A DNA stretch of 64,000 nucleotides, taken from the NCBI GenBank assembly GCA_963920705.1, contig OY987225.1:1364001-1428000 (forward strand), written 5' to 3'. A program made the position numbers and the translations under genes. Origin of the DNA: Odiellus spinosus. Taxonomy: Eukaryota; Arthropoda; Arachnida; Opiliones; Phalangiidae. Below are positions 9,401-56,377 of the stretch, in pieces (positions within the stretch are counted from its first letter, which is position 1; every line of letters starts with the position of its first letter). The notes below the pieces were generated by a model, which was not told the origin of the DNA, did no database searches, and saw only the letters and a list, made by a program, of their open reading frames with translations.

Positions 9401-12400
9401 ACGTTCCTAAATAAGTACAGCACAATTTTTCCAAAGTCGCCTTGCGGGCTTTTCTTCACCATTTTGACAAATGCCGAAGTTGAGAAGTATTTGGCTACTT
9501 TTCCTATTCTTCAACCTCCTCAACACGTTCAGAGTTCAAGTTTATCTTCGTTAAATTCTCCAGGTTAGTTTAAATTTATTCCCGCTTATAATCAAAAGTT
9601 TATAACACTTCGTTGAAAGAGTGGATATCTCGTAACGGTTTTTGGGGATCTTAGAAAAAATAGTCTCAAGTTCAACCAACAAGACTAGCATAAATAAAAA
9701 AATAAAGAGTCAAGGGCTATTCTAAGTTAAAGAATGAAAATACACTGGCAATAATTAAAGAATGATTCGCGACATTCTTAGTGAAATGCCACAATCTTAC
9801 TCCTTCCAGCTCTGAACTGCGACTCACCTACGTAGCTTGGGGGGTCGCGGTTTTATGGTGACAGAAAAAAATTAAAGCCGGGTTCGTACACAACCTGGAA
9901 AACCCGGGAAAGTCAGGGAATTTGGAAACCGTCCCAAAAGGTCAGGGAAAAGTCTGGAAATTTAAAAAATGTGCCCAAATGGTCGGAAAAATAAAATATT
10001 AAGGAACTGTTTATGATTGGTTGACCAACATAATTATTATAAATTGAAAATATTTGCCTAAAGATTAAAATGTTACGAGTAAACTATCTACCCCGATTGA
10101 TAAATGTCAAATAAAAAGTTGGAATTGCCAAGAGTTCGCCCATAAGAATAAATTCATGAAATGGTCAGGGAAAACCAGGAAAATTCAGAGAAATTAACTT
10201 GCAAAATTTTGTACGAACCCTGTAAAGGCACGTAGTGCCATTAGTAAAATCAAGGTTACATTGTCTTAATGTTAAACCACCTTATAGTAGCCACAATAAT
10301 TATGCCCAAATTTCACTATTATCTGGACCCCTTGGAAATCAGTCCCAGACTGAGGGGGATATCCTAATAAAGCCTTTATAAGGCCCTATTATTATTATTA
10401 TCTGCGTCAAACACTAAACCTAACAACTAACAAGTTAGTACTGAACAACTTGGCGCGTTGGTTGTGAAATGTTTGTTTGTTAGCTCATTTTGGGTAGACT
10501 TTTAATACTAGTACAATAATGATAATTGGGCTACTTTAGTTTTAAAATCAATCTAAAAACAGGCCTAAATAGTCTAGTCCACCTCGAGTTAGTAATATAC
10601 AAGTACAGTTAACTTTATCTCCAATACACCACTTTGCTCTTCCACTGTGCGCATGCCCGCGCTCGAAACGCTTACTAGTGGCGAAAAAAATAAAACGTTC
10701 ACTTGGTGAGGCGCGCGTAGTACCCCGCGTATTACCCCATGCAGGTTATTTCCCCTGCCATTTTCACAAAGTGAAAGTTCGCCCTATGCCGCTATGGCGC
10801 CCCAAGTAATGGCTAAATGGTGTATTAAGTCAACAAATCATAGAAAAAGGTGTACTCTAGCTTTTAGCTTATTGACAACACGAGGTGGAATCCCTTCTTC
10901 AGAAAAAACACGCTTTGAATGACTATTTGGATTGGAACTCTTCAAATCTAACTTACTATATATTTAATTCTAATTTTATTGAATTTCTTTCACAGGTGTA
11001 TCGCGTCCACTACTCGACACTCCAAAGCAAATTAATCTTCAAGATTTCTTAATTCCTACACTAAAAACTTCTCCCAAACACAAAATTAACGTTGGAAATT
11101 CAACATTAACTAGTAATAATACTATATTAACCGCCACGTCTAATCCTGGAAACTCTTTGTTCGCAAATGTTAGTAGTCAAGAAGCGTTAAAAACCACAAA
11201 TTTTGTTCAAAGTACATCATTCCCAAACACTTTGTCTACTCCAAGTAGCCAAAGCATTTTTGGTAATACACTCAACGCTAGAGGTACTAACAAACTTATT
11301 CCGACATTAAATAATGCGACCAATTTTGGACCAACGTTCACCAGTAACCAAATTGTAACTTCGCTAAACAACCCAATTTGTAGTAATCATCCGGCACACG
11401 GACATTCAACATCAACTACTACATTAACTAGTATGTCATCTCTATACCCGAGCCTAGCTTATCCATCGCTATATAAAAGTCCCGATACTGTCGTCCCAAC
11501 GTTAAATAAGGTAGGAGCCAATTTTGGACAACCATTGTTGCCGCTAAACCCAAGCCAAAGCGTTCCAATGCTAAATAATGCGAGGCTCAATTATGGACAG
11601 CCATTGTTAAACTTTCCAAACCCGAACCAAGTCATTCCGACGCTAAATAACGTAAGAACCAATTTTGGACAGCCATTGTTAAACTTTCCAAACCCGAACC
11701 AAGTCATTCCGACGCTAAATAACGTAAGAAATAATTTTGGACAGCCATTATTATATCCAAACATGAACCGAGTTATTCCGACGCTAAATAACCCACCATT
11801 GTTGCCACTAAACCCAAACCAAGTCATTCCGTCACAAATTTACGCGAGTTCCAATTTCGGACAGTCGTCGTTTTCTAACCGAATAAGTCAGCCTAGTCTA
11901 GCACCATCAGTGTCCACTAACGCTACTAATACAACATTTAGTAAATCTTATCAAGGACAGTCGTTAGTAACTAGAAGCGCAACTACCGCCAATCCAAGCT
12001 ATTCCGGACAAGCACCGCTTACCAACAAGGATGCTTCAGAAAAAATTACTAATTCTCAAACTTCCATTGGGTATTCAACAATATTGAGTGATACTGATAA
12101 AGCAGAAGCGGCTAAGGATGGAGACTATGAAAATTTAGTTCAAGAACTAACAGCAGAAATATACAAACAGTTTGATCAATTTTGCGCAGACGTCGAGGTA
12201 ATATTATAACAAGCACTATGTAAACTATGATATATAGACTCGAATGTTTTCCACTCAATCCTGTGGCTCTTTGTTCAGTTTGTTGCGTGGTCGTCAAAGA
12301 GGAGGCCAAAAATCATTTTTATTTGATGTGACTCTAAATTGTCAGAGCTAATGCAGCTTTGTAGTTGTCAAAGGTTGCGTTGTACCCTTTTCAGATGAGA

Positions 12401-14504
12401 CGTAACTAGCCGGTATAATCAGATTTAACCGAGGTTTAATCACAATTAACCGAGGTTTAATCACAATTAACCGAGGTTTAATCACAATTAACCGAGGTTT
12501 AATCACAATTAACCGAGGTTTAATCACAATTAACCGAGGTTTAATCACAATTAACCGAGGTTTAATCACAATTAACCGAGGTTTAATCACAATTAACCGA
12601 GGTTTAATCACAATTAACCGAGGTTTAATCACAATTAACCGAGGTTTAATCACAATTAACCGAGGTTTAATCACAATTAACCGAGGTTTAATCACAATTA
12701 ACCAAGGTTTAATCACAATTAACCGAGGTTTAATCACAGTTAACCGAGGTTTAATCACAATTAACCGAGGTTTAATCACAATTAACCGAGGTTTAATCAC
12801 AATTAACCGAGGTTTAATCACAATTAACCGAGGTTTAATCACAATTAACCGAGGTTTAATCACAATTAACCGAGGTTTAATCACAATTAACCGAGGTTTA
12901 ATCACAATTAACCGAGGTTTAATCACAATTAACCGAGGTTTAATCACAATTAACCGAGGTTTAATCACAATTAACCGAGGTTTAATCACAATTAACCGAG
13001 GTTTAATCACAATTAACCGAGGTTTAATCACAATTAACCGAGGTTTAATCACAATTAACCGAGGTTTAATCACAATTAACCGAGGTTTAATCACAATTAA
13101 CCGAGGTTTAATCACAATTAACCGAGGTTTAATCACAATTAACCGCGGTTTATTGAATAAAGAAGGCCATGTAAACCTCGGTTAAATCTGATTAAACCAC
13201 GGCTAACTATGCCTCATCTGAAGAGGGTATAACGGTGATGACGTAGCCAGTTTCTTTTAGTAGGCTCAAGAGTCCTGTAACGTATTTGTTTCCTGGCCCA
13301 CGCTTTGACGTTGCTCTGGCACAAATTTCTTGTAGGCCACTTCATTCCGCAATAGTCTTCCCCAAAATCATCTACTTGGGGTGCAATGTTTTGCGGTTAA
13401 CATTCAAGATTTTCTATATTGCGTGGTTTTCATAGTATCATTCCTAAATCGATTTAAGGACAGGTCTATTTTAAAATGTTTTGCTAGAGACTCTAATAAG
13501 GCTCAAAGGACACTTATTAATTTTAAAAGGCCAGTGAATTATCTTCCAAAACTATATCGGCGTATTGCCTTCCTCCTATGAGTGTTTGACGTTACGATAG
13601 ATTTTTTAATCTTATTTATTGGACTAAAGGAGAGATTCAACCAAACATCAAAGTTAATTCGTGCGGAGCTGAAAAAGCAATGTTTTCATCAAAATATATC
13701 AAGACATCCATACGCAATGGCTTCCCTTACGTAAAAAATTTAGTCTGATCTGAAGAGGTCTTCAAGAACACTACAAAAGTCTTGGGGAAGTCTTAAAGAC
13801 TTCGCCAAGACCTATTGACATAATGGAAGACTTCCCCAAGACCTCTTAAGACTGCATAAGACACCCGAAAGACTTCCCCAAGACCTCTTAAGACTATCTT
13901 TTTTTGGATGTTACGCACATTGTCTCGATGTTACGCACATATTTTATTTTGGTGAAAAGATTGCTTTTCAGCACGAAGAAACCTTGATGTTTTGCTGTTC
14001 TTTATTAATGTCCATGAACTCATCAGTGAATTATTCTTGGTTTCCTACGTTTAACACATTATGAGAATTTGATAGATTTTGGATTGTATTTATGGCGCAA
14101 TCTCTATTTCAATATCTTGGTAACCAAAACCTTGTTTTTAAATTAAGCCTGTCCTTTAAATGAATTACGATCTTAACTAACAATTATAATCATTTAACAA
14201 TAATGTACAGGCTCCTGATATCAAAAAACAAAATGATACAGAATCAACAACGGAAGCAACACCGAAATTGATTCCAGATACGTTATTTCAAAGCGTACCA
14301 AAGTTCAACTATTCCTCTAGCGAACTCAAGTCGATTAAAGCTGAAACGACATTTGTGGACGCAAACTACAAATACGATGATAATTTACAGGATCTTTTTT
14401 CCAAGTCAATTTTTAACTCGGATGAGTTGTCAAAGTCTAATATTGGTTCTTGTCAAACAATATCATCTGGTGAAATTTTAAGTTTAAAATTTTATCAACA
14501 ATGA
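6454..14504 (+). CDS. Winged-helix-repeat protein with Asn/Pro/Ser-rich tail (gene A, four exons)
   Basis: Exons 6454-6750, 8789-9563, 10996-12197 and 14211-14504 have GT-AG borders and join in frame to 2568 nt (855 aa). I see three diverged copies of one domain, at about residues 6-90, 122-210 and 250-345. Each has helices ending in a block like LRNFLAAHPKVF or FDQFIKQHSKIFPES, followed by a short beta hairpin. This resembles the N-terminal repeats of Egalitarian/EXD1 proteins or a LOTUS-type winged helix, which are RNA-associated; the assignment is tentative. Exon 3 encodes about 400 residues of low complexity with imperfect repeats carrying NFGQPLL and NQVIPTLNN, similar to FG-type disordered regions. 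Exon 4 encodes a 97-residue tail that is conserved in a paralog at 19886-29195. No catalytic domain is visible. Introns hold a retrotransposon tail, family B elements and a minisatellite element. Confidence 0.8.
7014..7430 (-). mobile_element. 3' end of a non-LTR retrotransposon
   Basis: The minus-strand frame 7101-7424 contains NIRLVSGLLTGQCQLNRHLH followed by a CRACHAEEKTSHALCNC zinc-knuckle-like motif. This C-terminal pattern is typical of the RNase H and tail region of Jockey/I-type elements. An (ATT)n run at 7018-7042 fits the 3' simple-repeat tail of such elements. The 5' part is missing: a dead, truncated insertion in intron 1 of gene A. Confidence 0.75.
7472..7606. mobile_element. Family B inverted-repeat element, copy 1
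   Basis: Begins CCTTACCAAAAAAAGTTAG, ends CTAACTTTTTTCGATAAG; the interior carries GAGGTCTTGGGGAAGTCTT. It is in intron 1 of winged-helix gene A. No clear target duplication. Confidence 0.75.
9878..10222. mobile_element. Family H inverted-repeat element (CAGGGTTCG ends)
   Basis: Ends GGGTTCGTACA and GTACGAACCCTG. Inside each end are CCTGGAAAACCCGGG-like and GTCAGGGAA motifs. TAAAG adjoins both ends. It is in intron 2 of winged-helix gene A. Confidence 0.7.
12379..13232. mobile_element. TIR element carrying a 21-bp minisatellite
   Basis: Outer inverted repeats run from CCCTTTTCAGATGAG to CTCATCTGAAGAGGG with TA on both sides, as for Tc1/mariner-type targets. The inner ends of the TIRs (AATCAGATTTAACCGAGG and reverse complement) grade into the tandem unit. 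The element lies in intron 3 of gene A. Confidence 0.75.
12426..13145. repeat. 21-bp tandem array, about 34 units
   Basis: The unit is TTAACCGAGGTTTAATCACAA, nearly invariant; single-base variants appear at about 12702 and 12739. Each unit contains the imperfect palindrome TTAACCGAGGTTTAA. The array leaves an open frame on the minus strand that repeats the same seven residues and is not credible as protein. Confidence 0.95.
13724..13908. mobile_element. Family B inverted-repeat element, copy 2
   Basis: Imperfect ends CCCTTACG and a T-rich right end; the interior repeats AGACTTCCCCAAGACCTCTT twice. In intron 3 of gene A. Confidence 0.7.
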
Positions 14505-22800: not shown

Positions 22801-25800
22801 CAGAAAATAGGCTTAGCTGGATTCATGGAGATCTGCTGAATTTTCAGCGCTGAAGGCGAGATCTCCGTGAAACTTCCAATAACATTTGACTTGTGGCTGA
22901 CCCACCAATACGAAGAAATTCAGGATATCCATAAATCCAGCTTATCCTATTTTCCAGGTGTAGATTGAAATTGAGTCTCGAGGAAATAATGGTCGAATCA
23001 TAGGATTTTTTTCCTAGAGATTACAAAACAATTGGACAAGTTTTGGACAAATAAGCAAATCGACGAGTTTGGACAAATAAGCGAATCGACGAGTTTGAAC
23101 AAATAATCGAATGGACGAGTTTGGACAAATAATCGACTGGACGAGTTTGGACAAATAATCGAATGGACGAGTTTGGACAAATAATCGAATGGACGAGTTT
23201 GGACAAATAATCGAATGGACGAGTTTGGACAAATAATCAAATGGACGAGTTTGGACAAATAATCAAATGGACGAGTTTGGACAAATAATCAAATGGACGA
23301 GTTTGGACAAATAGTCAAATGGACGAGTTGGAACAAATAATCAAATGGACGAGTTGGAACAAATAATCAAATGGACGAGAATGGACAATCAAATGGACAA
23401 GTAGGGAAAATAATCAAAATTTACATAAGCATCCTAGCTACTTCTACTTAATATTATTAAACATACAGACAAATGAAGACCACGCAAAATAAAAGTATTT
23501 TATTTTCATATTGGTTGCAATTATTAGGCCCAGAATTGTAATTCTGGGATAAATATTTTTGGGCATAAATAGCCTTCTCCAGAAGACTCGAGGCTATTTA
23601 GACCCAAAAGGACAAGGGCGGATTAACACTGAAAAATTACCCCTAACGATTTTAATGAGATTTTGCCCAGAGTATCTATATAGCCAAGAATAGATTCAAC
23701 ACAAGAATATGGAACCGTACGCTATAGCTCTAGTACAACGCTAGTCACGAATTGGAGAAGCTTACTAGATTTGACGTTATATGCGTTATGATTTTCACCC
23801 TATCACGAGCTTTAAAGGTCCGCGACAGTCAGCTAACTCTCTGCCGCCAGCGCCTATCCTCGCAGCCTGATATCCCCCCGCACTTATCGTAGAAAACAGC
23901 CAACTTCTTCCTGCGCACGTGACATGAGGCGTGGCGTAAGACCCCCATAGGCTCCGCCCGATTGTGACTAGCGCGGAGACAAAAGTATAGCTCTTCCATA
24001 TTCTTGTGTTAAATCTATTCTTGATATAGTGAAGTAAGAACCGGTGCAAAGTTTTAGACAATGTGTTTAAATGTGTCGTTTGGATGCCAATATCCCATTG
24101 AAAATACATGGTAGATGTGAAAAGTTCTTGAATTTATATCTCCCAAACGATGCATTAAAATTGTCTAAAACTTTGCACTGGTTCTTACCTCAGTTGTCTG
24201 CGCAAAATTTCATCAAAATCGTTAAGGGAAAGGGGAATTTCCCATGATAATCCACCCTTGTCCTTTGTGCGTAAATAGCCCAAAAAAAAAAAAAAATAAG
24301 CCTAAATAGACGTGGTGGCTATTTAGGCCCAGATTTTGGACCTAAAAAAATGGGCTTTTTCAAAATATTTGGAGCATCTAGAAACATTACAGAAAAATAT
24401 AAGGCAAATTGGTTGTGGTAGGAGCCTAGGGTGCAAAAGATTTTCTCAATCTATTCATTCTCCAAGACAGAAATAAGCATTTTGGTCTAATTATATTTTC
24501 ATTGGTGTACGAGTATGTTATTGCTGTTTTAATGTAAGTGAAAAACATACGTTGATAGACCCCCCAATTAGCTGTATCAGAAGTAGATGAAACCCTCCTT
24601 TGAAGTCTACTATAATGTTCGATATAGCGCTCCTCTCTGTATGGGTAAAACTCCAAATTTTACGAGATCGGAGGGGTCCTACTTCATACCCCCCTGTCTA
24701 CGGAAAATTGGAAATTCTCTCTCTCCACATACGACGACGTTTGGTTGACGAACTCCAAGGTTGCTAGAGATATTCGCTGGACGAACTCCTGCTCCGAAAA
24801 TATCTACCGTTAGGAGGCGTACGAATCGCGCTTTTTGAAACTAACCCATACAGAGAGGGGTAGACAAAACCAGGGAGTAATAGACTTCAAAGGAGGGTTT
24901 CATCGGCTTCTGGTTGTATTAGTACCTGTTGTATTTTTTAGCATCGGCGATTCTTTGATAATACTGTTAGTAATGGTTAATGTGGGAACTAGGAAACCTT
25001 GAGGATTGACAGGCTTCGAGTTGGACCCTATTTTAATTAAATAGATTTTGATTAGTAGTGCGAGGTATCCACTAACCATATGTTTCAAGTACTCCCTTAC
25101 CAAAAAGTTAGTCTTTCATTATGTCAAGAGGTCCTGGGGAAGTCATAAAGACTTTCCCAAGACTTTTGAAGCGTTCTTGAGGACCTCTTCAGATCAGACT
25201 AACTTTTTTCAGTAAGGGCTTTAATTTTTGGATAAATTATACTTCTGTTCAATAGAAGTTTTCCTATAAATGGGAGAAGCTGTGGTTAATGCACCATTTG
25301 AGCTACTTTGGCAACGAGGTAGATTGAGAATACTCGATGAAAGCCCGAATAATTTCCTTAAAGGATTCAATTGCGCAAGAATTTTGCAACTCGAAGTTTT
25401 CTTCCACTCTTACGAAATTTTAACATGCAAGCGGATTACATTGACCCAATCAATAGAGCTAGCTAGAACTTCTAAAAACATTCTAGAGTGAAGACTACTT
25501 CCAGGGACTATGCTGGTTCTTTTTAAAGGGAGAATGAAAGGCCAAAACAAGCTATTTTTAATCGATTAAGAATGATAAAATAATGAGAAAATATAACACA
25601 ACAAAAATATTTCGTTATTTTATAATCAATTTCCAAAGTTCCGATGCTAAGCCTAGTCTGCTTAGCTCGGTGAACTACGCTAGCACGACCTGGATTTTTT
25701 TAATATTCGCGGCTGTTCTTGTCGCCAATCACGAGCGTGTACGCGTATTGTAAAAATACGCGTACTCGCTCGTGATTGGCGACTAGATCAGATGGGAATA

Positions 25801-28800
25801 TTAAAAAAAAAAATACGGCTCGTGCTCGCCTAGTTCGCCGAGCTAGGCAGCCAAGGCTTAGCATCTGCAAGTTTCGGAACTTTGGAAATTGATTATAAAA
25901 TAAGGAAATATTTTTGGTGAGTTATATTATTGTTTTTCTCATTATTTTAGCATTCTTAATAGATTAAAAATAGCTTGTTTTGGCCTTTCATTCTCCCTTT
26001 AATGGATATTCAATAGTAAACAATCCTGATCAGTGCAAAGTTTTTCCAGTTCAACTACCTGTTACGATTGAACGGGTGTTTAGCGCATTAATTTTTGCAC
26101 CAAAGCATGTTGAATAGAAATGACATTGCAGAACTGGAAATGTAGTGGATCCTCTTATATAGAAATAATTTGAGCTTTTTACGAGTACTGGCCAAATGGC
26201 ATCGCTAGTGGTGTCAGGACTAGGTTAATGTTACGATAATCCGCAGGCATAAAAGTAGGTTTTAGCCTCGTTTTCGTGAGAATAACGAAAAAAAAAAAAA
26301 AATGCGAGATCTACTTCACTTTGATTTGTTTTCACATAAAAGCCTCAAGAAAACGAGGCTTTTGAGAAAGTAGCGAATTAAATAGCTCACTGACATGACG
26401 GGTCACTACTAGCCATTCCTGGTTAGCAAAACTTAATAGAAGCTTTAATCATTTTAGATAATTTTTTTTTTCCCGCTTCCACTAAGTGCTATAATTAGAC
26501 ACTTGCCATTGCGTGACGATTTGACCCTAGTATCCAATTAAAATGTGTTGGGGAAGCAGAAAATACAATAAATGTCTATACGCTTGTTTAGTTGTACGCT
26601 TTTTAGCTGCCAGGCATCAGTTGTGGAGGGTGTGATATCAATGGACCCGGTACATTCGTTACCACAGGTAAATCATGCTTCAAGTCTACAACCGGGCATA
26701 TAACGAATGAACTGAAGGTCTGAGAGTTGTGTCGTCACAACTTTCGCGCGGGGAGAGAGGAAAAATCTCAAAATTGTAAAACGGCCGAGAAACAGAAGTC
26801 GAAATTGCCCTCTCTAGCGGTTAAGATAGGAACTAAGTAGGCGGTGCTAATTATTTTGCCTTCGTTGAAGTTCGTTCGCGACTTCGCGCGTCGTCTGTAG
26901 AATCGTTAAGGGGGGTAGGAAATGTAACTAAGAATCTCGGCTTTCCCCTCTCTCTCGCGAAACGAAAGAGGCTCCCGCCGGGGCGTCGCGAGTTCAAGTT
27001 CGATTTACTCTACCAGCAATACTGGGCCATACCGCTCTTCTGTAGAAATTTGGAATACTTAGGGTGGAATCATTGACTGAGGAAATCGGACCTTCATCAT
27101 TGTAACCCGTAGTATGTCGTCTTGTAGACTTGGGGATGATTTACTTGTGTCGTTACCTACTGTGAATAGTGTGTGCCAGAAGTCTATAAAAATCATTTAG
27201 GGAAGTTCCTATCTATTCTTGTAATGATAAAATCGTAAAACATAATTCTCGTTGGTGGAAGAATTCAATAATGCGCTTGCTTGCGAACTAGCAGCGTATA
27301 ATTAGTCTTTTTGAAAAAGTTACCCATTCAAAAAATTCATAATGATAAACACCAATCATTATATTTTTGGAGCTTTATGCAGCGACATTCTGAGATTAGC
27401 GAGTTAGAAATTCCTTAAAGATTATTTGCAGACTTTGGCACGAGCTTAAAATTGATTTCAGTATTTTTTCTTTTGGCAAACCTGTCAAGTGATTAAGATT
27501 TGACTCTTCCGCGATATATTCCAATACTTTTGCATGCGACTTCACTCTCACACTGAGTCCCGTCGTAGATTCTGGAAATATTTTATAATGACAACTGATA
27601 AATTGATCGAAACATTTAAATGGCCCAAAATTCTGGAACTGATTCGAAACAAAGTCTTGAATGTGAGTGGGAGCCTCGTTGAATATTTCATCAAAGTCTT
27701 TTACGCAAACTACGCCCGTTTTATCTTTGAGAGCTCGAATCCTCATAATGTTGGAGAAGTATGTAATGGCTTCTTTCGCGCGGCTCGATAGAACTTTCGC
27801 ATTCTTTGGTTCCTTAGTTAAAAAGCTGCCGGGCTTAAAAAAGAAAAAAAATTAGGTTTGTTTCAATTATCTATAAATTATTTTTCTCCACTTCAGCCTT
27901 TGCAACTAATTTGCCGTCTTGGCAGGCTGAAGAAAGGAAGTAGTTGAATGGAAGCTAGGACCAGCTACTTGTGGATCCTTACTGTATATAGGGGTATATT
28001 CTTGAGGGATACAGACAAAGACCCCACTACCACAATATCATGTAGCGCAAAAATCTCAGCAAAAGAAGTACTATTTCCTTTAGTAATTCTGGAGTTTCTG
28101 GTAGTGTTGGTACAGGGACCCCGACCCTGAAAGTCTGGGATCCTTAACTTTTGTCCCTGAGCAGGTCCCATCCCCGACTGTGGAAAACTTCAGGGTTATA
28201 TTTTCGTAAATATAATTTTAAATTTTGACGCTGACGCACCTTGCTAAAAATAGTTCCTTCTCCCCCTTTTTCGTGGGCGACAACAGAATGAGCCGAGCCT
28301 GAATAGCGAATATCTCTCTAGCAACCTTGGAGCAGGCTCATGCAGCTGACAGACTTGCGCGTTTCTCATTCTCGCTTTTTTATTTTTATTTTAAGATTTA
28401 GAATTCCTTGAATTTTTTGGTTCATTTTCAAATTCCCTGACCCTGAATTTATTTTCAGGGAACCCGGGCAAAAGTAGCCAGCGTCTTATGGGGAAGGCTA
28501 AATGTGCCTGGGTTCCCCGAAAACGAGAACCTGGGTAGAAATAGACAGGTAACATGTAGACCGTTTTTTCTGCCCAGGCTAATAATTAACCGAGTGCCTG
28601 GGCAGAAATAGCCTCCCATAAGTCGCTAGCTATTACTGCCCGGGAACCCGCCAGCCGAGAGCCCGAGTAGAAATAGACAGGCCACATAGACTGTCCATTT
28701 CTGCTCTGAAACTGAGAAACCAGGACCCGGACACATTTAACCTTTTTGCCCGGGTCCCGGGCACAAATAGACACGCCGTAGAGTTTAACATTATACACAG

Positions 28801-44062: not shown

Positions 44063-44558
44063 TCTCTCGCGTTATATTACACTTTCAATCAATAAATTTA
44101 TGATTATATTATATAAGATCAAGCGGATTTAAGAAACTTAAAATAGAAACTCAACCGAATGAATATTAAATGTGGAAACCATGGTGCTTGGCACGCAGAA
44201 TATCACTTTTGGCTCATTTAGTGACAAATCATTCAAACTTCTTAATTTTTGCACCAGACCCCCTTTCAATTTGTTAAAATTTTTGTACAATTCTAAATTT
44301 TTAATTGGGAAAGAAATATACAAAGTAACGGTTTTATCAGAAACTGACCATGGCCACATAAACCCTTTTAAAATGACTCCCCTCGCCAGGCTATAAATAG
44401 GTGCGATATTTCCTCAAAAGTGGTTTGTCCCTGCTTAGATCAGCTCTTGATGCTGGGTATCTATATTTGGTTATGAGGATGCCGATATCCTTGCCTGGAA
44501 AGGAGGGGGGGGGGCGATGTGGTAGGATTTTACTTTACGTGACCCACCCAACTAACAC

Positions 44559-44931
44559 ATTTTTCTGACTGTTTAGACCATGGGGAGTTAAAAAAAAAAT
44601 TGTTAAAAAAATATTGGACCGCCGCAAATATTTTAAATTTTTTTTTGAAAATTTGAAATTCCCATGCTAAAATCCCATAGAATGCGCCATAGGTTAGGTT
44701 AGGTTGGGTTAGAATCTATGGGATTTAACACGCAAACTTCAAATTTTGCGTGTTAAATCCCATAGATTCTAACTTAACCTAACCCAACCCAACCTATGGC
44801 GCATTCTATGGGATTTTAGCATGGGAATTTCAAATTTTCAAAAAAAAAAAAATTTAAAATATTTGCGGCGGTCCAATATTTTTTTAACTATTTTTTTTGA
44901 ACTCCCCATGGTCTAAACAGTCAGAAAAATT
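44559..44931. repeat. Near-perfect 373-bp palindrome
   Basis: Arms of about 185 bp around 44740 with very few mismatches, starting TTTTTCTGACTGTTTAGACC and ending with its reverse complement. The arms include GGTTAGGTTAGGTTGGGTTA. The A and T runs differ slightly between arms. It would fold into a single long hairpin; probably a miniature element of hairpin type. Confidence 0.88.
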
Positions 44932-44940
44932 GTACCGGCG

Positions 44941-46189: not shown

Positions 46190-48590
46190 GGCTTTGTCAA
46201 TCATTATGAAACTTTCTAGATGATTTTTCCAGGCTCAATTAATCCTAATTATACAATATGTGGAAAATCTAAAGAGGTCCGTGTTTAGCATTGGGCCATT
46301 TGTCACGAGAAGAGAACCGTCGTGATGTAAACTTTTTAAATGTTCCATTCACGAGACCTTTATAAGTTTCAAACATTATTTAAAATGGATCTGACTGTTT
46401 TTAAATTTTCCCTCTTTTTCACATTGACAGAGTGGAAGAAATATTTCTTCAGTAATGAAAGCTTACTCAAAAGTATAAAACCTAAATGATATTTCAAGCG
46501 CAAGAGAAGGTCTGGTACTAAACGATGAGGCCGAGTTTAAATGGCCACCAAAAAAAAATCTCAAAATTGGCTCAAAAACTAGACAACTTCCCATCCTACT
46601 CAAGGCTCAAACTCTCAAATATCAATTCAGTAGCTGACTTTTTCTACAACTGTCTGGATTTAGACGTGGACACTTTTCTCCCCTCGCCTAGTTTTTCCAC
46701 AAGAGGCCACAATCATCTTGATTTAGACGTGGCGACGTTTTTTTCTCCCCTTTCCCTAGTTTTTCTATAAGAGGCCACTATTTGAAACTCCATAAACTCC
46801 GAGGAAAAACAGCCATTTAATGGCCTAGCCGACTCAATTATCACCCTCGATGATAAAGTCAAAATTTGAAAAGCCTTTTCCTCCCATTTCACTCTTCCTT
46901 AAGTGACAGAAAGGATTATAGTGAATTGGTCGCTATAGCTGTCAATTTTTTTCACATTAAGTTATTTCCATGGACGCCCCAATTCCCTTAAAATGTACTC
47001 CAATTTAATAAATATATAGATTTCTTTTTTTTCCTTGATAAACGTTGTTATTCGACTACTTATCATTTTGTATATTACACTTTCTACAAATTACAAGCTG
47101 GAAGGGAGGCTTGATGTAAAAATCCCCGAAACCTAATTATATAAACATATTTACAGAAGCGGATGGAAACTATAAGTCTGGGACATAAGCCCTTCCCCAA
47201 CTTTGGCTGTAGTCGCCGTGAAATCGTTCTAGCAAAAATTACATCCCCTCACCCCCCTTAAAAGATGACCAATCAGAGATGGGTTGGGCGAACGTTACCA
47301 TGGTTACAAATGGCCAGGAACTATGTTCGAACACCAGCGCTCCAAACGTTGATCTCTTACGTGCCTATTCACGCCTGTTCCTTGTACTATGCCCCTCATT
47401 AGTAAGCATCTGTCAAAGGGGGTAGGTAAAAAAAGAGGGGTACACATACTACATAGAGCCCTTAGGCTTTACGTCCCAGACTTCTTATATTTTCCATGGG
47501 CTTCTGATATTTATCTACTAAAACGTGATTTCGAATTAAGCCCAGATTTAACAAATCCCTTATACGAAACCAATTTCCTCATTTTATTTGCTAATGCACT
47601 GCTGTGTTGCGCGTACTGACATTAGGTTAAAATAGGGCTTTAAATGTAGTTATCTCCAAAAGAAACTTTCCTTTTACTATGGGCAGCTCCATAGAAAAAG
47701 ATAAGTTCCTTTTGGAGACGGTTGTGCAAGCGGTTGAGTGGGTGCAAAACCTGGTTGATTCTGATAAAAATGACCCAAAATGAGTAAACTTCCTTTAATC
47801 ACTTGAAGCCTTGGTTCTGAAATGGCTCAATTAAATGTGCAATTGCACGTTACAAAATTTATCAAAGAACTAAGATTTTAAAATAATTTGTACTACCTTC
47901 ATTTTTGGGATTGGAATGCGGAGAAATTAACAAGATTTTTTATCCTATAATACCTTCGTACATAATTTAAGTTACCGATAAATTTATTTATTGTCTACAC
48001 AAGTCACAACCCACGAAATCCAGATTTATGATTTTATGTCAAGGTAGGTACCGGTCAGACCCAAACCTATTTAGGAGCCTTAACCGAACAGAAGTACTAC
48101 CAATCGCAATTTTTCATAGCTAAATTGGCGCAAAATTGTCTAATCCTCCTTGTCCCTGGGAAGTGAAAACAGTCTGGGAAACAATTTTTTCTTCAACTTG
48201 TCCTCAGGACCAGTTACCTCTAATTATACGTTCGGAGCAGTGATTCAACGCTTAATTTTAATTCTACGGTTGCGGGTTGCCCCACTGAACGAGAACCCCT
48301 ATTAAATTAAATAAATTACCCGCCACTTTAAGCTGAGAACTAGTTCATCCTTAGCTGAATTGTGAATACTTCAATTTAGCCGCCGCAAAACTCGCAAACC
48401 TTATGGTTTATGTTTCACTTCGCTGCCTGCGGAACCATACGAAATAATTTCCAGTTTTCGATTGACAAATGGATTTCGAATATTATCATTCGAAATATAG
48501 TTTTAGATTGAAAACTGCGCTGTTAAAGTTCTACTATTTTACATCTAAGAAAGAATCTTTGGTTTTCTGATTGCTATTAAAAACTGTCGA
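46190..48590. other. Gene-free stretch left of the foldback element
   Basis: I see only short open frames without recognisable domains and no clear repeat pair, apart from a small imperfect palindrome at about 48452-48517 (CAGTTTTCGATTG and its complement). That palindrome resembles sequence just outside the right end of the foldback element. Confidence 0.5.
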
Positions 48591-48757
48591 TTTGATCCTA
48601 ATAAAAAAGGAGTGACTATCGTTACTTCCAATTTTCGTTTCTTCCAACGCTCGTTACTTCTAATGCCCGTTACTCCCAATACTCGTTTGTTCCAACGCTC
48701 GTTTCTTCCAAAAAATAGTAGGAAAAATGGTTTTAATAGTAAGATTCTGGTACGATT

Positions 48758-49930
48758 AGCTTAGAAAATGGTGTCATAGCCTTTAAAATGGTGTCAAAGC
48801 GTGGAAAATGGTGTCAAAGCGTGGAAAATGGTGTCAAAGCGTGGAAAATGGTGTCAAAGCGTGGAAAATGGTGTCAAAGCGTGGAAAATGGTGTCAAAGC
48901 GTGGAAAATGGTGTCAAAGCGTGGAAAATGGTGTCAAAGCGTGGAAAATGGTGTCAAAGCGTGGAAAATGGTGTCAAAGCGTGGAAAATGGTGTCAAAGC
49001 GTGGAAAATGGTGTCAAAGCGTGGAAAATGGTGTCAAAGCGTGGAAAATGGTGTCAAAGCGTGGAAAATGGTGTCAAAGCGTGGAAATGGTGTCAAAGCC
49101 TGGAAAATGGTGTCAAAGCCTGGAAAATGGTGTCAAAGCCTGGAAAATGGTGTCAAAGCGTGGAAAATGGTGTCAAAGCGTGGAAAATGGTGTCAAAGCG
49201 TGGAAAATGGTGTCAAAGCGTGGAAATGGTGTCAAAGCCTGGAAAATGGTGTCAAAGCCTGGAAAATGGTGTCAAAGCCTGGAAAATGGTGTCAAAGCGT
49301 GGAAAATGGTGTCAAAGCGTGGAAAATGGTGTCAAAGCGTGGAAAATGGTGTCAAAGCGTGGAAAATGGTGTCATAGCGTGGAAAATGGTGTCAAAGCGT
49401 GGAAAATGGTGTCAAAGCGTGGAAAATGGTGTCAAAGCGTGGAAAATGGTGTCAAAGCGTGGAAAATGGTGTCAAAGCGTGGAAAATGGTGTCAAAGCGT
49501 GGAAAATGGTGTCAAAGCGTGGAAAATGGTGTCAAAGCGTGGAAAATGGTGTCAAAGCGTGGAAAATGGTGTCAAAGCGTGGAAAATGGTGTCAAAGCGT
49601 GGAAAATGGTGTCAAAGCGTGGAAAATGGTGTCAAAGCGTGGAAAATGGTGTCAAAGCGTGGAAAATGGTGTCAAAGCGTGGAAAATGGTGTCAAAGCGT
49701 GGAAAATGGTGTCAAAGCGTGGAAAATGGTGTCAAAGCGTGGAAAATGGTGTCAAAGCGTGGAAAATGGTGTCAAAGCGTGGAAAATGGTGTCAAAGCGT
49801 GGAAAATGGAGTCAAAGCCTGGAAAATGGTGTCAAAGCCTGGAAAATGGTGTCAAAGCCTGGAAAATGGTGTCAAAGTGTGGAAAATGGTGTCATAGGCT
49901 CATAGCCTGGAAAACGGTGTCATAGCCTGG
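48758..49930. repeat. Left 20-bp tandem array, about 58 units
   Basis: The unit is CAAAGCGTGGAAAATGGTGT. A CCTGG variant clusters in three blocks (about 49098-49140, 49236-49280 and 49816-49860). Two units lack one A (around 49085 and 49223). All three forward frames stay open because no frame of the unit contains a stop. Confidence 0.97.
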
Positions 49931-50002
49931 TAAAATAATAATGACAAACATTTATTGCGCAGGAATGAAGGGTTTAATTGATGTCATGGTGGAAATACAC
50001 GT

Positions 50003-50067
50003 AGAGAAATTATTTGCGAAATACTCATGACGTAATACGTCATGAGTATTTCGTAAATAATTTCTCT
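50003..50067. repeat. 65-bp near-perfect hairpin in left foldback arm
   Basis: Symmetrical about ATGACGTAATACGTCAT, with arms AGAGAAATTATTTGCGAAA. The centre holds TGACGTAA, a CRE/ATF-like site. An equivalent hairpin occurs in the right arm. Confidence 0.85.
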
Positions 50068-51039
50068 GCATAATTTCTCTACATTTATAGCGCAGCTCTT
50101 ATCCCATTATTCTCTTGATTACCTCATCTCTCTAGTCACGCTATCTTATATCTAGATGGCGCATAGTTGCATAGATGGAACGAATACATTTTATGCGCGA
50201 AGTTTAAATTGACATATTTTACTACACTACACATACAAAAATGCATTTTTAAAATATAAATTTATTTATTAAAAAAAAAACTAAAGATTTTTTGAAGACT
50301 AGCAATTTCCCTTTCCTTTAAAATTTAACAATTGTAATTTATCTTTTGATTTCATTTATTTTCTGGCTAGATGTCCCCCTAGTCTCAAACAATGCACTCT
50401 TGACATTAGATCTAGTGCCGCGCAGTTCAAGCATGGTTTAACTGTTTTAAAGCAGCAAGTTCACACCGACCTTTGACTGTTTATTAAACATTATCATTTA
50501 CACTTTTTGGTGCATTTTTTCAAAATGCGTGAAAATCCTGAGTTATTTTCGTGAAAATAGTTATTTCTATAGGACAGGTATTTTTAAGAATTCTTCCTTT
50601 CAGGGGAAAAAGTCAAGACTTGAGATATTTCCCGAAATTTTGGAAAATAGGGTACTTTACAGACCAAATAACATTTTTAGGGTATTTTATGGATGTGGTG
50701 TTGATTATTTATATATGTTGTAACTTAAACCTAAACCTAACTGTAAATTAAACCTAAAACTAGCTGTAAATTAAAGCTAAACTAAATCTAACCGTTAAAA
50801 TGTAACTTAAAATTAACTTATAGAAATTATATTCTTATAGAGCCAGCGCCACAAGGTCGCGAAAGGGGTGAAGCCCTGACCACGATGAAATTCTCTCTCT
50901 CAAACTGTATAATTAAAATAAGGCGAGTATAATTAAAATAAGGCGACTGTATTTAATATAAGGCGACTGTATTTAATATAAGGCGAGTATAATTAATATT
51001 AGGTAACGTGCACCCTTATAATTCATATTTGCTTCTAAT

Positions 51040-51510
51040 ACAAGTTCTTTCTTATATTTCAAGTTCTTCCTAATAATTCAAGTTCTTCCTAATAATTCAA
51101 GTTCTTCCTAATAATTCAAGTTCTTCCTAATAATTCAAGTTCTTCCTAATAATTCAAGTTCTTCCTAATAATTCGAGTTCTTCCTAATAATTCGAGTTCT
51201 TCCTAATAATTCGAGTTCTTCCTAATAATTCGAGTTCTTCCTAATAATTCGAGTTCTTCCTAATAATTCGAGTTCTTCCTAATAATTCGAGTTCTTCCTA
51301 ATAATTCAAGTTCTTCCTAATAATTCAAATTTGCGTCTAATAATTCAAATTTGCGTCTAATAATTCAAATTTGCGTCTAATAATTCAAGTTCTTCCTAAT
51401 AATTCAAGTTTGCGTCTAATAATTCAAGTTCTACCTAAAAATTCAAGTTGCTTGTAATAATTCAAGTTCTATTTAATAATTCCAGTTGTTTAAAATAACT
51501 CAAGAATAGG
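51040..51510. repeat. Left 19-bp tandem array of the foldback centre
   Basis: The unit is TTCTTCCTAATAATTCAAG, with blocks of the TTCGAG variant and of a TTTGCGTCTAATAATTC variant. Confidence 0.93.
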
Positions 51511-51529
51511 TTATATCCTAACCTTGAAT

Positions 51530-51880
51530 TATAATGAACAACTTGAAATATTAGAAACAACTTGAAATATTAGAAACAACTTGAAATATTAGAAACAACT
51601 TGAAATATTAGAAACAACTTGAAATATTAGAAACAACTTGAAATATTTGAAACAACTTGAAATATTAGAAACAATTTGAAATATTAGAAACAACTTGAAA
51701 TATTAGAAACAACTTGAAATATTAGAAACAACTTGAAATATTAGAAACAACTTGAAATATTAGAAACAACTTGAAATATTAGAAACAACTTGAAATATTA
51801 GAAACAATTTGAAATATTAGAAACAACTTGAAATATTAGAAACAACTTGAAATATTACAAACAACTTGAATTATTACAAA
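51530..51880. repeat. Central 19-bp tandem array
   Basis: The unit is AACTTGAAATATTAGAAAC, about 18 copies, present only on the right side of the symmetry point. It resembles the reverse complement of the left array unit, suggesting common origin. Confidence 0.93.
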
Positions 51881-51884
51881 CAAC

Positions 51885-52290
51885 TTGAATTTTTAGGTAA
51901 AACTTGAATTATTAGACGCAAACTTGAATTATTAGGAAGAACTTGAATTATTAGACGCAAATTTGAATTATTAGACGCAAATTTGAATTATTAGACGCAA
52001 ATTTGAATTATTAGACGCAAATTTGAATTATTAGACGCAAATTTGAATTATTAAGAAGAACTTGAATTATTAGGAAGAACTCGAATTATTAGGAAGAACT
52101 CGAATTATTAGGAAGAACTCGAATTATTAGGAAGAACTTGAATTATTAGGAAGAACTCGAATTATTAGGAAGAACTCGAATTATTAGGAAGAACTCGAAT
52201 TATTAGGAAGAACTTGAATTATTAGGAAGAACTTGAATTATTAGGAAGAACTTGAATTATTAGGAAGAACTTGAAATATAAGAAAGAACT
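51885..52290. repeat. Right 19-bp tandem array of the foldback centre
   Basis: The unit is CTTGAATTATTAGGAAGAA, with blocks of the GACGCAAATTTGAATTATTA variant. It is the inverted counterpart of the array at 51040-51510, with different variant order and counts. Confidence 0.93.
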
Positions 52291-53264
52291 TGTATTAGAA
52301 GCAAATATGAATTATAAGGGTGCACGTTACCTAATATTAATTATACTCGCCTTATATTAAATACAGTCGCCTTATATTAAATACAGTCGCCTTATTTTAA
52401 TTATACTCGCCTTATTTTAATTATACAGTTTGAGAGAGAGAATTTCATCGTGGTCAGGGCTTCACCCCTTTCGCGACCTTGTGGCGCTGGCTCTATAAGA
52501 ATATAATTTCTATAAGTTAATTTTAAGTTACATTTTAACGGTTAGATTTAGTTTAGCTTTAATTTACAGCTAGTTTTAGGTTTAATTTACAGTTAGGTTT
52601 AGGTTTAAGTTACAACATATATAAATAATCAACACCACATCCATAAAATACCCTAAAAATGTTATTTGGTCTGTAAAGTACCCTATTTTCCAAAATTTCG
52701 GGAAATATCTCAAGTCTTGACTTTTTCCCCTGAAAGGAAGAATTCTTAAAAATACCTGTCCTATAGAAATAACTATTTTCACGAAAATAACTCAGGATTT
52801 TCACGCATTTTGAAAAAATGCACCAAAAAGTGTAAATGATAATGTTTAATAAACAGTCAAAGGTCGGTGTGAACTTGCTGCTTTCAAACAGTTAAACCAT
52901 GCTTGAACTGCGCGGCACTAGATCTAATGTCAAGAGTGCATTGTTTGAGACTAGGGGGACATCTAGCCAGAAAATAAATGAAATCAAAAGATAAATTACA
53001 ATTGTTAAATTTTAAAGGAAAGGGAAATTGCTAGTCTTCAAAAAATCTTTAGTTTTTTTTTAATAAATAAATTTATATTTTAAAAATGCATTTTTGTATG
53101 TGTAGTGTAGTAAAATATGTCAATTTAAACTTCGCGCATAAAATGTATTCGTTCCATCTATGCAACTATGCGCCATCTAGATATAAGATAGCGTGACTAG
53201 AGAGATGAGGTAATCAAGAGAATAATGGGATAAGAGCTGCGCAATAAATGTAGAGAAATTATGT

Positions 53265-53329
53265 AGAGAAATTATTTACGAAATACTCATGACGTATTAC
53301 GTCATGAGTATTTCGTAAATAATTTCTCT
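53265..53329. repeat. 65-bp near-perfect hairpin in right foldback arm
   Basis: Same hairpin as at 50003-50067, reading ATGACGTATTACGTCAT at its centre, with the arm mismatch of the left copy corrected. Confidence 0.85.
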
Positions 53330-53399
53330 ACGTGTATTCCACCATGACATCAATTAAACCCTTCATTCCTGCGCAATAAATGTTTGTCATTATTATTTT

Positions 53400-54362
53400 A
53401 CCAGGCTATGACACCGTTTTCCAGGCTATCACACCATTTTCCACGCTTTGACACCATTTTCCACGCTTTGACACCATTTTCCAGGCTTTGACACCATTTT
53501 CCAGGCTTTGACACCATTTTCCACGCTTTGACACCATTTTCCACGCTTTGACACCATTTTCCACGCTTTGACACCATTTTCCACGCTTTGACACCATTTT
53601 CCACGCTTTGACACCATTTTCCACGCTTTGACACCATTTTCCACGCTTTGACACCATTTTCCACGCTTTGACACCATTTTCCACGCTTTGACACCATTTT
53701 CCACGCTTTGACACCATTTTCCACGCTTTGACACCATTTTCCACGCTTTGACACCATTTTCCACGCTTTGACACCATTTTCCACGCTTTGACACCATTTT
53801 CCACGCTTTGACACCATTTTCCAGGCTTTGACACCATTTTCCAGGCTTTGACACCATTTTCCACGCTTTGACACCATTTTCCACGCTTTGACACCATTTT
53901 CCACGCTTTGACACCATTTTCTAGGCTTTGACACCATTTTCCAGGCTTTGACACCATTTTCCAGGCTTTGACACCATTTTCCAGGCTTTGACACCATTTT
54001 CCACGCTTTGACACCATTTTCCACGCTTTGACACCATTTTCCACGCTTTGACACCATTTTCCACGCTTTGACACCATTTTCCACGCTTTGACACCATTTT
54101 CCACGCTTTGACACCATTTTCCACGCTTTGACACCATTTTCCACGCTTTGACACCATTTTCCACGCTTTGACACCATTTTCCACGCTTTGACACCATTTT
54201 CCACGCTTTGACACCATTTTCCACGCTTTGACACCATTTTCCACGCTTTGACACCATTTTCCACGCTTTGACACCATTTTCCACGCTTTGACACCATTTT
54301 CCACGCTTTGACACCATTTTCCACGCTTTGACACCATTTTCCACGCTTTGACACCATTTCCA
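53400..54362. repeat. Right 20-bp tandem array, about 48 units, inverted
   Basis: The reverse complement of the left array unit (ACACCATTTTCCACGCTTTG). It has about ten fewer units than the left array and different positions for the CCTGG-type variants, so the arrays have changed independently. Confidence 0.97.
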
Positions 54363-54540
54363 CGATAATACCCTTTTCCAACTATGGAGTTTTCCTACTA
54401 AAATATTTTATCAACCAATCAGAGGAGTCGTTGGAAGTAACGCCCTCGCCGTGCCGTCCGTTTCTTCCACCGATTTTAGACGTTGGAAGAAATGAACATT
54501 GGAAGTAACGATCTAACTCCTAAAAGAGGACTATAAGAAT

Positions 54541-56377
54541 GAAATTGCAGTTTTCGATCGAAAACCAGATTTCGAATGGGGCCCTCATGGTGCATTTTCA
54601 GTTTGGCAGTCAGTAATCCTCTAAATACTGAGCGTAGTTAATCCTATGTATTCTCCTATGACTATGAAAGTGTGATAGAACCATTTCGGTGAACACGCTT
54701 AGCTGTCATTTTTTGTTTAAGATTTAAAATAAATAAATCACCAAAGAAGGGTAGCACCCTTCTTGGAGAGAAGAAAACCATGGTTGGGCGGTGCGATCAC
54801 TATTCTTCAGTATTTGGATTTAAGGAATCCATCAGATAATACTTATACTCTCGGTGCATTAAAGGCATTACACTGATCGCACTATACATATACAAGCCCG
54901 AAAAGGGAGCTCAAAAGAAAAGAGAGTGACCAGTCCAGCAGCCAGTCAGCATTCACCTGAAAGATCGAATCTCTCCTCTTACGTTTGAATATCATATTAA
55001 GGCCAAGGATAAATGGCATTAAATTTACGTACTGTTCTATAAATTAAGGTAAGATTTTTATAAGCAAAGTTTTGTAATATAAATTAGCATGATAATACTT
55101 ATAAATTGTTGGAATCCTATAAGAAATGTGTCGCATGAAACGGAAATTTTCGCAAAGGCTTAAATGTTTTAGGTAGTGGGCTAGTGGCTTCGTTAGGCTT
55201 CTTTCTTGAGTAAACCTATGGACAGGCAGGCTACAAACACAGGATTACACAAGTGAGTCATACCGAGGCTCCAAGGCTTAAATTGTATTTGACAGATCAA
55301 GAATTTGTACATTTGAATGTAAATGAAAGGATTCATTTTTTGTTATCTAGTAGTTAAATGCAGGAATTGTGCGTAATTTACATAAATGTACGTATTATTT
55401 TGGATTCCATGAACCAGTGTAGTTTTTTGCGGTGGAAAATGCTTGAATTGTTTAGTATAGACTGCTTCATATGTGCTAGTGCTTCCATATTTTCAGTAGT
55501 TAATAGCCATAAGCCGACTGGATGCAGAGGTGGGACTTAATCGAAGCACTAGTACCGTAGAGGTTAGCGAAGCTCTTATTGGCAAAGTGCTTCACTAGCC
55601 TTCGACTGTATTACACCCTGCGAATCAGTCCCACCATTTGGCTTATGTAGTATCCCAATTATTTTCCAAGATTAGTTAGGTGTAGCATTTGGTAATACAG
55701 CGTATCGCTAAATTGTATTAAGTTATAAGTTATAAGTTGTAAGTTGGATCGGTTTGTTAAAAATAGCTTAGCTGTTTTCATGCTATTTAAATAGTCTTGA
55801 TTGGCTACTAGAGAGTTTAAAAAACAACGGAAAATATAACGTCTGAAGTAAACAGTTATCAAAATTACTTTAAATTTACATGCAAATTACAAATTTACGC
55901 GACAGAACAATTCAATTTAAATAATTTAAAAATTAGCTGAAGCGCAGAATTGCCGCTTCGTTCCATAAAAAAACTCGTGTGGTTTTTATAAAACTTTTGG
56001 AGAGCCTTTGAGAAAGATCATTATTTCTACAATTTTTATTTAATAGTTTTCAAATTATAAAAATAAGGGGAATTGGTCATTGATACGAGTCTTTTAATGT
56101 AACCAAGAATTGTCACCAAAAACGCTAAGTCAAGAAGAAAAAAAATATATATTTTTAAAGGGGGCCCTTGATACAGCAATATTCAATAAATTCTAGACTT
56201 AATTTTCAACGATGAAGCATTGATGAGACATTTGAGCTTCATATGATTGAAAGCGTGCATTTTGACTCGTTCAGCATGTTTCCCATAACCCGGTGTACCA
56301 CTTCTCCATCACATTCAACTGGATTATTTGAATTTCCAGTATCCTGGATCTTCTATTCCTCCGGGAATTGGTTATAG
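54541..56377. other. Gene-free stretch right of the foldback element
   Basis: No gene seen. It contains the short palindrome at 55509-55648, and near 56110-56200 sequence partly matching 58300-58430 in inverted orientation (including GATACGAGTCTTTTA), which suggests another diffuse inverted repeat spanning family D copy 2. Confidence 0.4.
55509..55648. repeat. Short imperfect palindrome
   Basis: CCATAAGCCGACTGG with GGTGGGACT at the left and AGTCCCACCATTTGGCTTATG at the right form an inverted pair about 140 bp long. It resembles a miniature element. No duplication was identified. Confidence 0.5.

Follow-up and report, generated by a model that had tools for sequence, protein, structure and literature searches.

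The window, a 64,000-nucleotide stretch of genomic DNA, contains a 5,911-bp inverted-repeat element (positions 48610–54520) without genes, which we best interpret, with a probability of roughly 0.8, as a non-autonomous foldback DNA transposon of an animal Mutator-like (MULE) family with Muta1-like ends; this estimate includes the mobilisation and the palindrome origin proposed below. Long inverted repeats with tandem arrays make up most of the element, as in foldback elements generally. A preliminary description had already recognised a foldback layout of nested minisatellites over about 6 kb. Size and layout were confirmed by alignment of the arms and by a second copy on contig C3, but the limits then given, 48595 and 54540, take in flanking sequence. 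The true termini lie at 48610 and 54520; homology to the C3 copy breaks off at these positions, and the termini of other copies agree with them.

On its left side the element is preceded by the target-site duplication TAAAAAAG (48602–48609), which directly abuts the terminus, an arrangement shared by other copies. The first end segment, T1 (48610–48763, plus strand), whose outer boundary is common to other copies, is composed of ten bases, GAGTGACTAT (48610–48619), six 12-bp repeats resembling CGTTACTTCCAA at 16-bp steps and a further stretch of about 50 bp. It is followed by a minisatellite of the 20-bp unit GAAAATGGTGTCAAAGCGTG (48764–49930, plus), delimited by TRF and resolved into 57 units by parsing, and by a unique arm (49910–51036, plus) which represents the derived copy of this sequence. 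Within the arm lie a near-perfect 65-bp palindrome (50003–50067, a self inverted match of 95%) that is present in both arms, 2.8 copies of a degenerate 23-bp repeat (50719–50782, plus; mirrored at 52551–52614) and 4.8 copies of an AT-rich 20-bp repeat (50907–51003, plus; mirrored at 52330–52426). The left half of a 19-bp array (51036–51487, plus, 23 parsed units) leads to the palindrome centre (51488–51522), where the array reverses into its right half (51523–52297, minus, 41 parsed units), which includes a private variant beside the centre. Beyond it are the T2-side unique arm (52297–53416, minus), which occupies the same position as in the relatives, a second 20-bp minisatellite (53395–54364, minus, 47 parsed units) and the end segment T2 (54365–54520, minus). 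Read inward, T2 opens with the ten bases GGAGTTAGAT and carries 12-bp repeats at positions 11, 27, 51 (inverted) and 79. The right target-site duplication, TAAAAGAG (54521–54528), agrees with the left one at seven of eight bases. The 20-bp and 19-bp arrays and the central reversal had all been listed in the preliminary description, which missed the 23-bp, AT-rich 20-bp and 16-bp repeats; its estimate of 50–58 copies of the 20-bp unit per arm suits the left array, but not the 47 units parsed on the right (56.7 and 48.5 copies, respectively, by TRF).

Alignment of the two unique arms over about 1.12 kb gives 1,115 matches, four mismatches and four gaps. The terminal segments of about 155 bp have diverged from each other, aligning well over only about 42 bp, and the 16-bp unit, present in about six copies at the left end, is degenerate at the right. 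The 19-bp array is lopsided (23 units on the left against 41 on the right), with units of type TTCAAGTTGTTTCTAATAT confined to the right. The mirror layout is far beyond chance. Mutual similarity between the window flanks was considered as a possible extension of the terminal inverted repeats (TIRs) and rejected, as it belongs to a dispersed repeat (beginning CAGTTTTCGATCGAAAACTAG) found elsewhere in the genome. Searches of viral contigs, genome contigs, phages and plasmids yielded no match, Rfam and tRNA scans returned nothing, and neither did a PDB search with one window ORF.

The preliminary description had proposed a search for other genomic copies and for a coding relative with the same termini, and both were found. 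With the window excluded, the two ends gave at least 30 and at least 25 matches, and relatives with the same ends span 7 to 31 kb. Among 14 two-ended spans, 11 were testable for target duplications. Perfect 8-bp duplications flank three of them (C3, GGTGCGCT; C11, ATCTATTT; C4:5664, GAATATTT), duplications matching at seven of eight bases flank three more (the window copy, C18:5276 and C17:8490), and in a copy of about 30.9 kb on C15 both ends are directly abutted by a 12-bp direct repeat, TTCCTTTTATCC; the remaining four, namely the transposase-bearing C9, C45 and two C4 copies, have no matching duplication. An initial guess at the duplication, a 9/10-bp word overlapping the terminus, was dropped for the 8-bp reading after comparison of the copies. 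As a control, 16 T1 flanks were compared with 23 T2 flanks, and all six matches of at least seven in eight bases pair the two ends of one copy. No partner for a reciprocal exchange of ends between copies was found among these 16 × 23 flanks, a count that omits T1 ends not aligning from their first base (C15, C4a, C107, C18:6935, C18:7023, C2:31834 and C4:2635 among them), the T2 end of C7, and those ends of C5 and C120 that gave no usable match. Rearrangement activity of the element, which the preliminary description had raised as a potential breakpoint hotspot, is possible.

Two relatives of about 31 kb, C9 and C15, the latter bounded by T1 and T2, encode a MULE transposase domain (PF10551; E values of 6.7e-9 and 8.2e-11, respectively, both exceeding the curated cut-off). 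FLYWCH matches (PF04500) in the transposase, with E values of 0.00096 and 0.00043, fall below the curated cut-off, and the exon carrying the sub-threshold match extends to a DGTFKV motif. A FLYWCH zinc finger at the N terminus of the transposase is a further mark of Phantom/Muta-type MULEs. A second gene ends in a RING-type tail, detected with an E value of 3.6e-11 in C9 and near-identical by eye in C15. Its first part shows 72% identity over 107 amino acids between two subfamilies and gave only chance-level Pfam matches in three readings. This gene is oriented toward T2 in C9 and C15, whereas the two C4 copies carry it facing away from that end. In C9 the gene cassette lies between a separate pair of inverted arms, which include a 32-bp array. 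The Pfam scan covered 17 distinct ORF readings from the fetched copies, a part of all ORFs; within these the sole other transposase domain was DDE_Tnp_4, inside a nested stretch of C45, and neither a PHD finger nor a P-type domain was present. Polinton-like ORFs in C45 had suggested a viral autonomous element, which was ruled out: they belong to a nested insert flanked by a 6-bp duplication of its own, and the corresponding site is empty in C9 and C15.

Phantom/Muta-type elements are recognised by a MULE domain within the element, target duplications of 8–10 bp and short tandem repeats behind a terminal stretch. All three features were found in this family: the domain in C9 and C15, where the cassette may instead be nested, as discussed below, duplications of 8 bp, and the 12-bp subterminal repeats. 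The imperfectly palindromic 10-bp terminus described for Muta1 was not found: inspection by hand showed no end-to-end pairing in either GAGTGACTAT or GGAGTTAGAT, and we do not class the element as Muta1. The 8-bp duplications fit neither Rehavkus nor Galileo of the P superfamily, and their PHD finger and P-type domain were not among the scanned ORF readings. The earlier recognition of a foldback element whose TIRs contain tandem arrays holds. The systems named alongside it were FB, Galileo and Rehavkus; the closest published plans we found are those of Muta1 and Tm1, both Mutator-like.

Duplications of 8 bp are also made by the hAT and P superfamilies. A true foldback transposon mobilised by a member of one of these, with the MULE cassette of the large copies as a nested and unrelated element, is a reading that we regard as improbable. 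The inverted arms of the C9 cassette and the opposite orientations of the second gene in the two subfamilies are in its favour, Galileo provides a precedent for a P-type foldback, and five of nine loci with an inner arm of at least 81% identity lack a family end among the matches listed. The other four (C9, C15, C107 and C2:20880088), however, lie inside same-ended elements or within about 11 kb of them, the 12-bp subterminal repeats, 4-bp spacers and 8-bp duplications fit Muta1, and DDE_Tnp_4 in the nested stretch was the only competing transposase domain in the readings scanned.

Judging from the sequences of its copies, the 5.9-kb palindrome has recently been mobile. The C3 copy, also 5.9 kb long, occupies a different site and, once the three big arrays are set aside, differs from the window copy by no substitution in 2,468 bases (T1, 154 bp; T2, 156 bp; arms, 1080 and 1078 bp; no mismatch in any of them and one single-base gap), the remaining differences being confined to those arrays. 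As both copies have four arm-to-arm mismatches, the palindrome moved intact. An immobile, locus-specific inverted duplication, that is, an amplification product, is very improbable: the window duplication does match at just seven of eight bases, but the homology of the two 5.9-kb copies ends exactly at 48610 and 54520, and sharp termini shared with many further matches in unrelated flanks refute this explanation. Large perfect inverted repeats can stem from assembly errors, and the inner 500 bp or so of the arm alignment has no mismatch, but an assembly fold-back artefact or a chance palindrome, for which the preliminary description would have expected no other copies and a single arm, is refuted by C3 with its own flanks and perfect duplication, and a mirror-image assembly error would not produce arms with arrays of unequal length, a different order of units, and dissimilar terminal and flanking sequences.

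Returning to the Mutator-like reading, we propose that a transposase from a relative of the 31-kb type binds the 12-bp repeats in the ends of about 155 bp and moves the element in trans through a cut-and-paste mechanism whose staggered cuts are 8 bp apart. The long mirrored arms would be a secondary feature. All nine relatives that were read on both sides carry the arm segment on the T2 half only, which argues that the palindrome arose by inverted copying of the arm to the other end; the 20-bp array already adjoins both ends in the larger relatives. The T2-side interior, comprising the unique arm, the AT array and the 19-bp array, would have been copied in inverted orientation onto the T1 side during repair or recombination, for instance as an excision gap was filled, with the inverted pair of 20-bp arrays as the probable starting point. 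Slippage would have altered the array lengths, and the completed palindrome would then have transposed as a unit.

The comparisons with known systems given here draw on the available portions of their published descriptions. Muta1 is a 3,198-bp element with 145-bp TIRs, one gene and the imperfectly palindromic terminal motif mentioned above, which its authors assign to the type 2 Foldback TEs and which has been assayed for excision in laboratory yeast (PMC5225508); Muta families of Aedes aegypti are assigned to Phantom (PMC6446971). In Muta1, as in our element, the outermost 10 bp give way to 12-bp subterminal repeats, with spacers of 3–4 bp in Muta and 4 bp here; subterminal tandem repeats occur in 10 of 12 long-TIR Muta families, duplications are 8 or 9 bp and non-autonomous derivatives are many, as in this family (PMC5225508). 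Muta transposases combine the MULE domain with FLYWCH and introns (PMC5225508); in our relatives the FLYWCH match is sub-threshold. Unlike Muta1, the present element has non-palindromic and dissimilar ends, arms of about 2.9 kb and coding relatives of about 31 kb with two genes. Tm1 of root-knot nematodes is similar in that its transposase is Phantom-like, its composite TIRs consist of short tandem repeats, the outermost motifs at its two ends are unequal and non-autonomous derivatives exist. It has 14-bp units, mostly 9-bp duplications and lengths of about 1–2.6 kb, however, and nested arrays are not mentioned in the available part of its description (PMC3169594). Ghost and Spectre, both MULEs of arthropods, have two ORFs each; in the most complete Ghost a RING ORF lies next to the transposase, and the duplications of Spectre are 8 bp long. 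Ghost, however, has no known TIRs, those of Spectre measure 74 bp and are accompanied by a C2H2 ORF, and foldback arms are not described for either in that portion of the source (PMC6446971). Galileo has tandem repeats in its foldback arms, internal sequence recruited into them and mismatched duplications in some copies, but a P-type transposase, 7-bp duplications and units of about 140–210 bp (PMC4168063, PMC3573991). Tetris of Drosophila virilis is likewise a non-coding, non-autonomous foldback with tandem repeats in its arms, but with 220-bp units and no assigned transposase (PMC4079207). Rehavkus, MULE-related, with a minisatellite near one end and found in arthropod hosts, differs in its PHD finger and 9-bp duplications (PMC6446971).

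The window element looks like an unusual form of a known transposon type. More tentatively, the family may constitute a giant animal Mutator system of about 31 kb, with divergent transposase and RING-tailed genes whose first parts are alike and which each reach a minisatellite. Its 20-bp arrays might serve as recombination handles through which one end is rebuilt from the other, leading from a 9.5-kb copy to the fully palindromic 5.9-kb mobile element, and through which separate copies also swap ends, so that chimeric copies lacking matching duplications would be left behind at chromosomal breakpoints. Foldback elements have caused inversions in Drosophila, in the case of Galileo (PMC4168063, PMC3573991). 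A single genome here holds coding relatives, 9.5-kb elements with a one-sided arm and finished palindromes, three forms similar enough for the sequence of events to be reconstructed, and this series addresses the question of how long foldback arms originate. The recently moved 5.9-kb palindrome, in turn, offers a direct test case for chromosome breakage or in vivo excision by such structures.

The foldback element is an inverted repeat of 5,911 bp at window positions 48610-54520, each half of which comprises, from the outside inwards, an end of ~155 bp (T1 on the left, T2 on the right), a minisatellite of 20-bp units (57 parsed on the left and 47 on the right), unique arm sequence of ~1.1 kb and a 19-bp array, which counts 23 units in the left half and 41 in the right and flips orientation at the centre. 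Nested in the arm is a 65-bp palindrome, and two repeats, a short one of 23 bp and an AT-rich one of 20 bp, also lie within it; array readings excepted, no ORF of more than 90 residues was present in the arms. Alignment of the two arms gave 1,115 matching positions, 4 mismatches and 4 gaps, the mismatches all falling within its outer ~600 bp. T1 and T2 were found to be diverged, aligning well over ~42 bp only, with a local score of 57 against a maximum of 31 in 1,000 shuffles. A dispersed repeat with the core CAGTTTTCGATCGAAAACTAGATTTCGAATG lies on both sides of the insertion (48433-48518 and 54530-54580) and in many other genomic places. Elsewhere in the window, a second inverted-repeat element (12383-13229), possibly a Tc1/mariner-type MITE, holds a minisatellite of 35 21-bp units between the ends TA-CCCTTTTCAGATGAG and CTCATCTGAAGAGGG-TA. 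Three MITE-like palindromes (1806-2254, 25523-26002 and 44555-44933), each 380-480 bp long, were also observed; their self-complementarity is 83-91%. Weak, below-cut-off matches were obtained to the Egalitarian winged-helix domain in ORFs 6418-6762 and 8789-9568 and to a reverse-transcriptase zinc-binding domain; ORF 27396-27851 gave no Egalitarian winged-helix match and resembles ORF 8789-9568 by eye. These weak Egalitarian and reverse-transcriptase matches suggest an arthropod host.

The genome (443 Mb, 286 contigs) was searched with both ends. T1 returned 35 matches, four of which represented the flank repeat, leaving at least 30 besides the window, and T2, with 40 of its 59 candidates scored, returned 41, of which 15 were flank repeat, leaving at least 25; these counts are lower bounds, and some matches share one locus. 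At an unrelated site on contig C3 (locus L009:378-6308), this palindrome is present a second time. Outside the three big arrays, which leaves 2,468 bp in T1, T2 and the two arms, the C3 copy showed no mismatch to the window copy and one single-base gap, while the arrays differed by whole units and by two (centre), four (T2-side) and zero (T1-side) bases. Movement of the 5.9-kb element is therefore recent, as the divergence between the two copies lies under ~0.12% (rule of three, hand calculation). Each copy carries four arm-to-arm mismatches and like arms are mismatch-free between copies; the palindrome was thus already complete when the element moved. The window element is a true transposon, real and recently mobile. 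A 20-bp flank was common to four T1 ends (C1:7360, C84:2416, C245 and C58), and T2 flanks were identical within the pairs C224:141/C224:520 and C84:455/C84:1887; the ends therefore also travel inside larger duplicated units. T1 was additionally observed in three tandem copies (L003, C4:2635456-2635822) and as head-to-head pairs (C18:6899558 and C2:20887090).

Hand pairing of the T1 and T2 match lists gave 14 two-ended spans, three of which (C16, C18:6899 and C2:20876943) stand outside the duplication count because their ends are truncated or rearranged. A duplication or direct repeat was present in seven of the 11 testable copies: perfect on either side of C3 (GGTGCGCT), C11 (ATCTATTT) and C4:5664139 (GAATATTT), 7/8 in the window copy (TAAAAAAG/TAAAAGAG), C18:5276483 and C17:8490671, and, in C15, a direct repeat of 12 bp read by eye, TTCCTTTTATCC, that directly abuts both ends, of which T2 is intact and T1 slightly altered. 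As a control, the flanks of 16 T1 and 23 T2 ends, some identical through larger duplications, were compared with each other: all six matches of at least 7/8 connected the T1 and T2 of a single copy, and the best of the remainder was 6/8 (C9 with C142). The flanks of C9, C45, C4 2834420-2852619 (T1 altered) and C4 2894056-2903742 carried no duplication. Such copies would fit end exchange between copies, for which no reciprocal partner was found among the same 16 T1 and 23 T2 flanks; they are comparable to the Galileo copies called chimeric (PMC3573991).

The ends resemble those of Muta1 from Aedes aegypti, described as a 10-bp terminal motif followed by 12-bp repeats with 3-4 bp between (PMC5225508). 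T1 comprises 10 bases and then, from position 11, six 12-mers akin to CGTTACTTCCAA in exact 16-bp steps, and T2 has 12-mers at positions 11, 27 and 79 and an inverted one at 51. The terminal 10 bases of Muta1 are imperfectly palindromic, whereas the first 10 of the foldback family are not. Two relatives of ~31 kb, C9 (760956-792157) and C15 (about 3173370-3204288), have much of their body in common (~93-98% in collinear pieces). Both carry an exon-split gene with a Mutator-like element (MULE) transposase domain above the Pfam cut-off (E 6.7e-9 and 8.2e-11, respectively) and a FLYWCH match below it (E 0.00096 and 0.00043). In C9, a second, divergent gene encodes a RING finger (E 3.6e-11), and C15 has a nearly identical tail by eye; both C9 genes extend up to a 32-bp array. 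The first part of this second gene gave no Pfam match above chance level in three readings. Between C9 and the C4 subfamily it has 72% identity over 107 aa, and it weakly resembles the transposase FLYWCH region (E 7e-4 and 1e-4; three loci searched).

The coding cassette could still be a nested element, since inverted arms of its own bracket it; these occur at five loci without family ends but also at four with them (≥81% identity in each case). Published Phantom elements combine duplications of 8-10 bp with FLYWCH or other fingers and one or two ORFs, and in aphids a minisatellite follows the transposase ORF (PMC6446971); our family has 8-bp duplications. The same paper also reports, for Ghost, a RING ORF adjoining the MULE transposase. 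Given the end plan, the MULE gene and these published features, we class the family, by plan and domains, among the animal MULEs, with a Phantom/Muta-like plan.

Other elements were observed within copies. A deleted copy on C45 holds a ~18-kb Polinton-like insert (L018:3235 to L020:1322) with ends AGTAGTAATAGTGGG...CCCACTATTACTACT, a 6-bp duplication (AAGGTC), an empty site in C9 and C15, and ORFs that appear capsid-like and polymerase-like by eye, two having no Pfam hit. The same nested stretch includes an element (L019:781-5685) whose inverted arms measure 1.9 kb and match at 98%; one of them contains a DDE_Tnp_4 domain, which is Harbinger-type. The C16 copy contains a non-LTR-type retrotransposon fragment (L024:1855-4150; RVT_1 E 3.1e-25, endonuclease E 4.7e-12).

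Neither a foldback with this nested double-array layout nor a ~31-kb Phantom appeared among the top-ranked results of a literature search that covered few subscription journals. In nine of nine other copies read on both sides (C11, C4:5664139, C9, C45, C15 in part, C16, C18:6899 and two C4 copies), the arm segment occupies the T2 half, with no counterpart detected next to T1 at an E cut-off of 1e-4; C9 has a ~100-bp inverted arm fragment ~10 kb in, and a tenth copy (C2:24575962), read on its T2 side only, is outside this count. As these relatives carry the arm on the T2 half only, the T1-side arm of the 5.9-kb form is derived. The 20-bp array stands at both ends in six of six copies with both end regions compared (C11, C4:5664139, C9, C45, C16 and C18:6899), and the 19-bp array is already present in C11 (9.5 kb) and C4:5664139 (9.7 kb), whose centres are partly inverted. 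We propose that the 20-bp arrays, lying in opposite orientation, likely took part in recombination or repair synthesis that copied the T2 side inward as far as the centre, which would have given the T1-side arm. For Galileo, internal sequence is described as having been recruited into the arms (PMC4168063).
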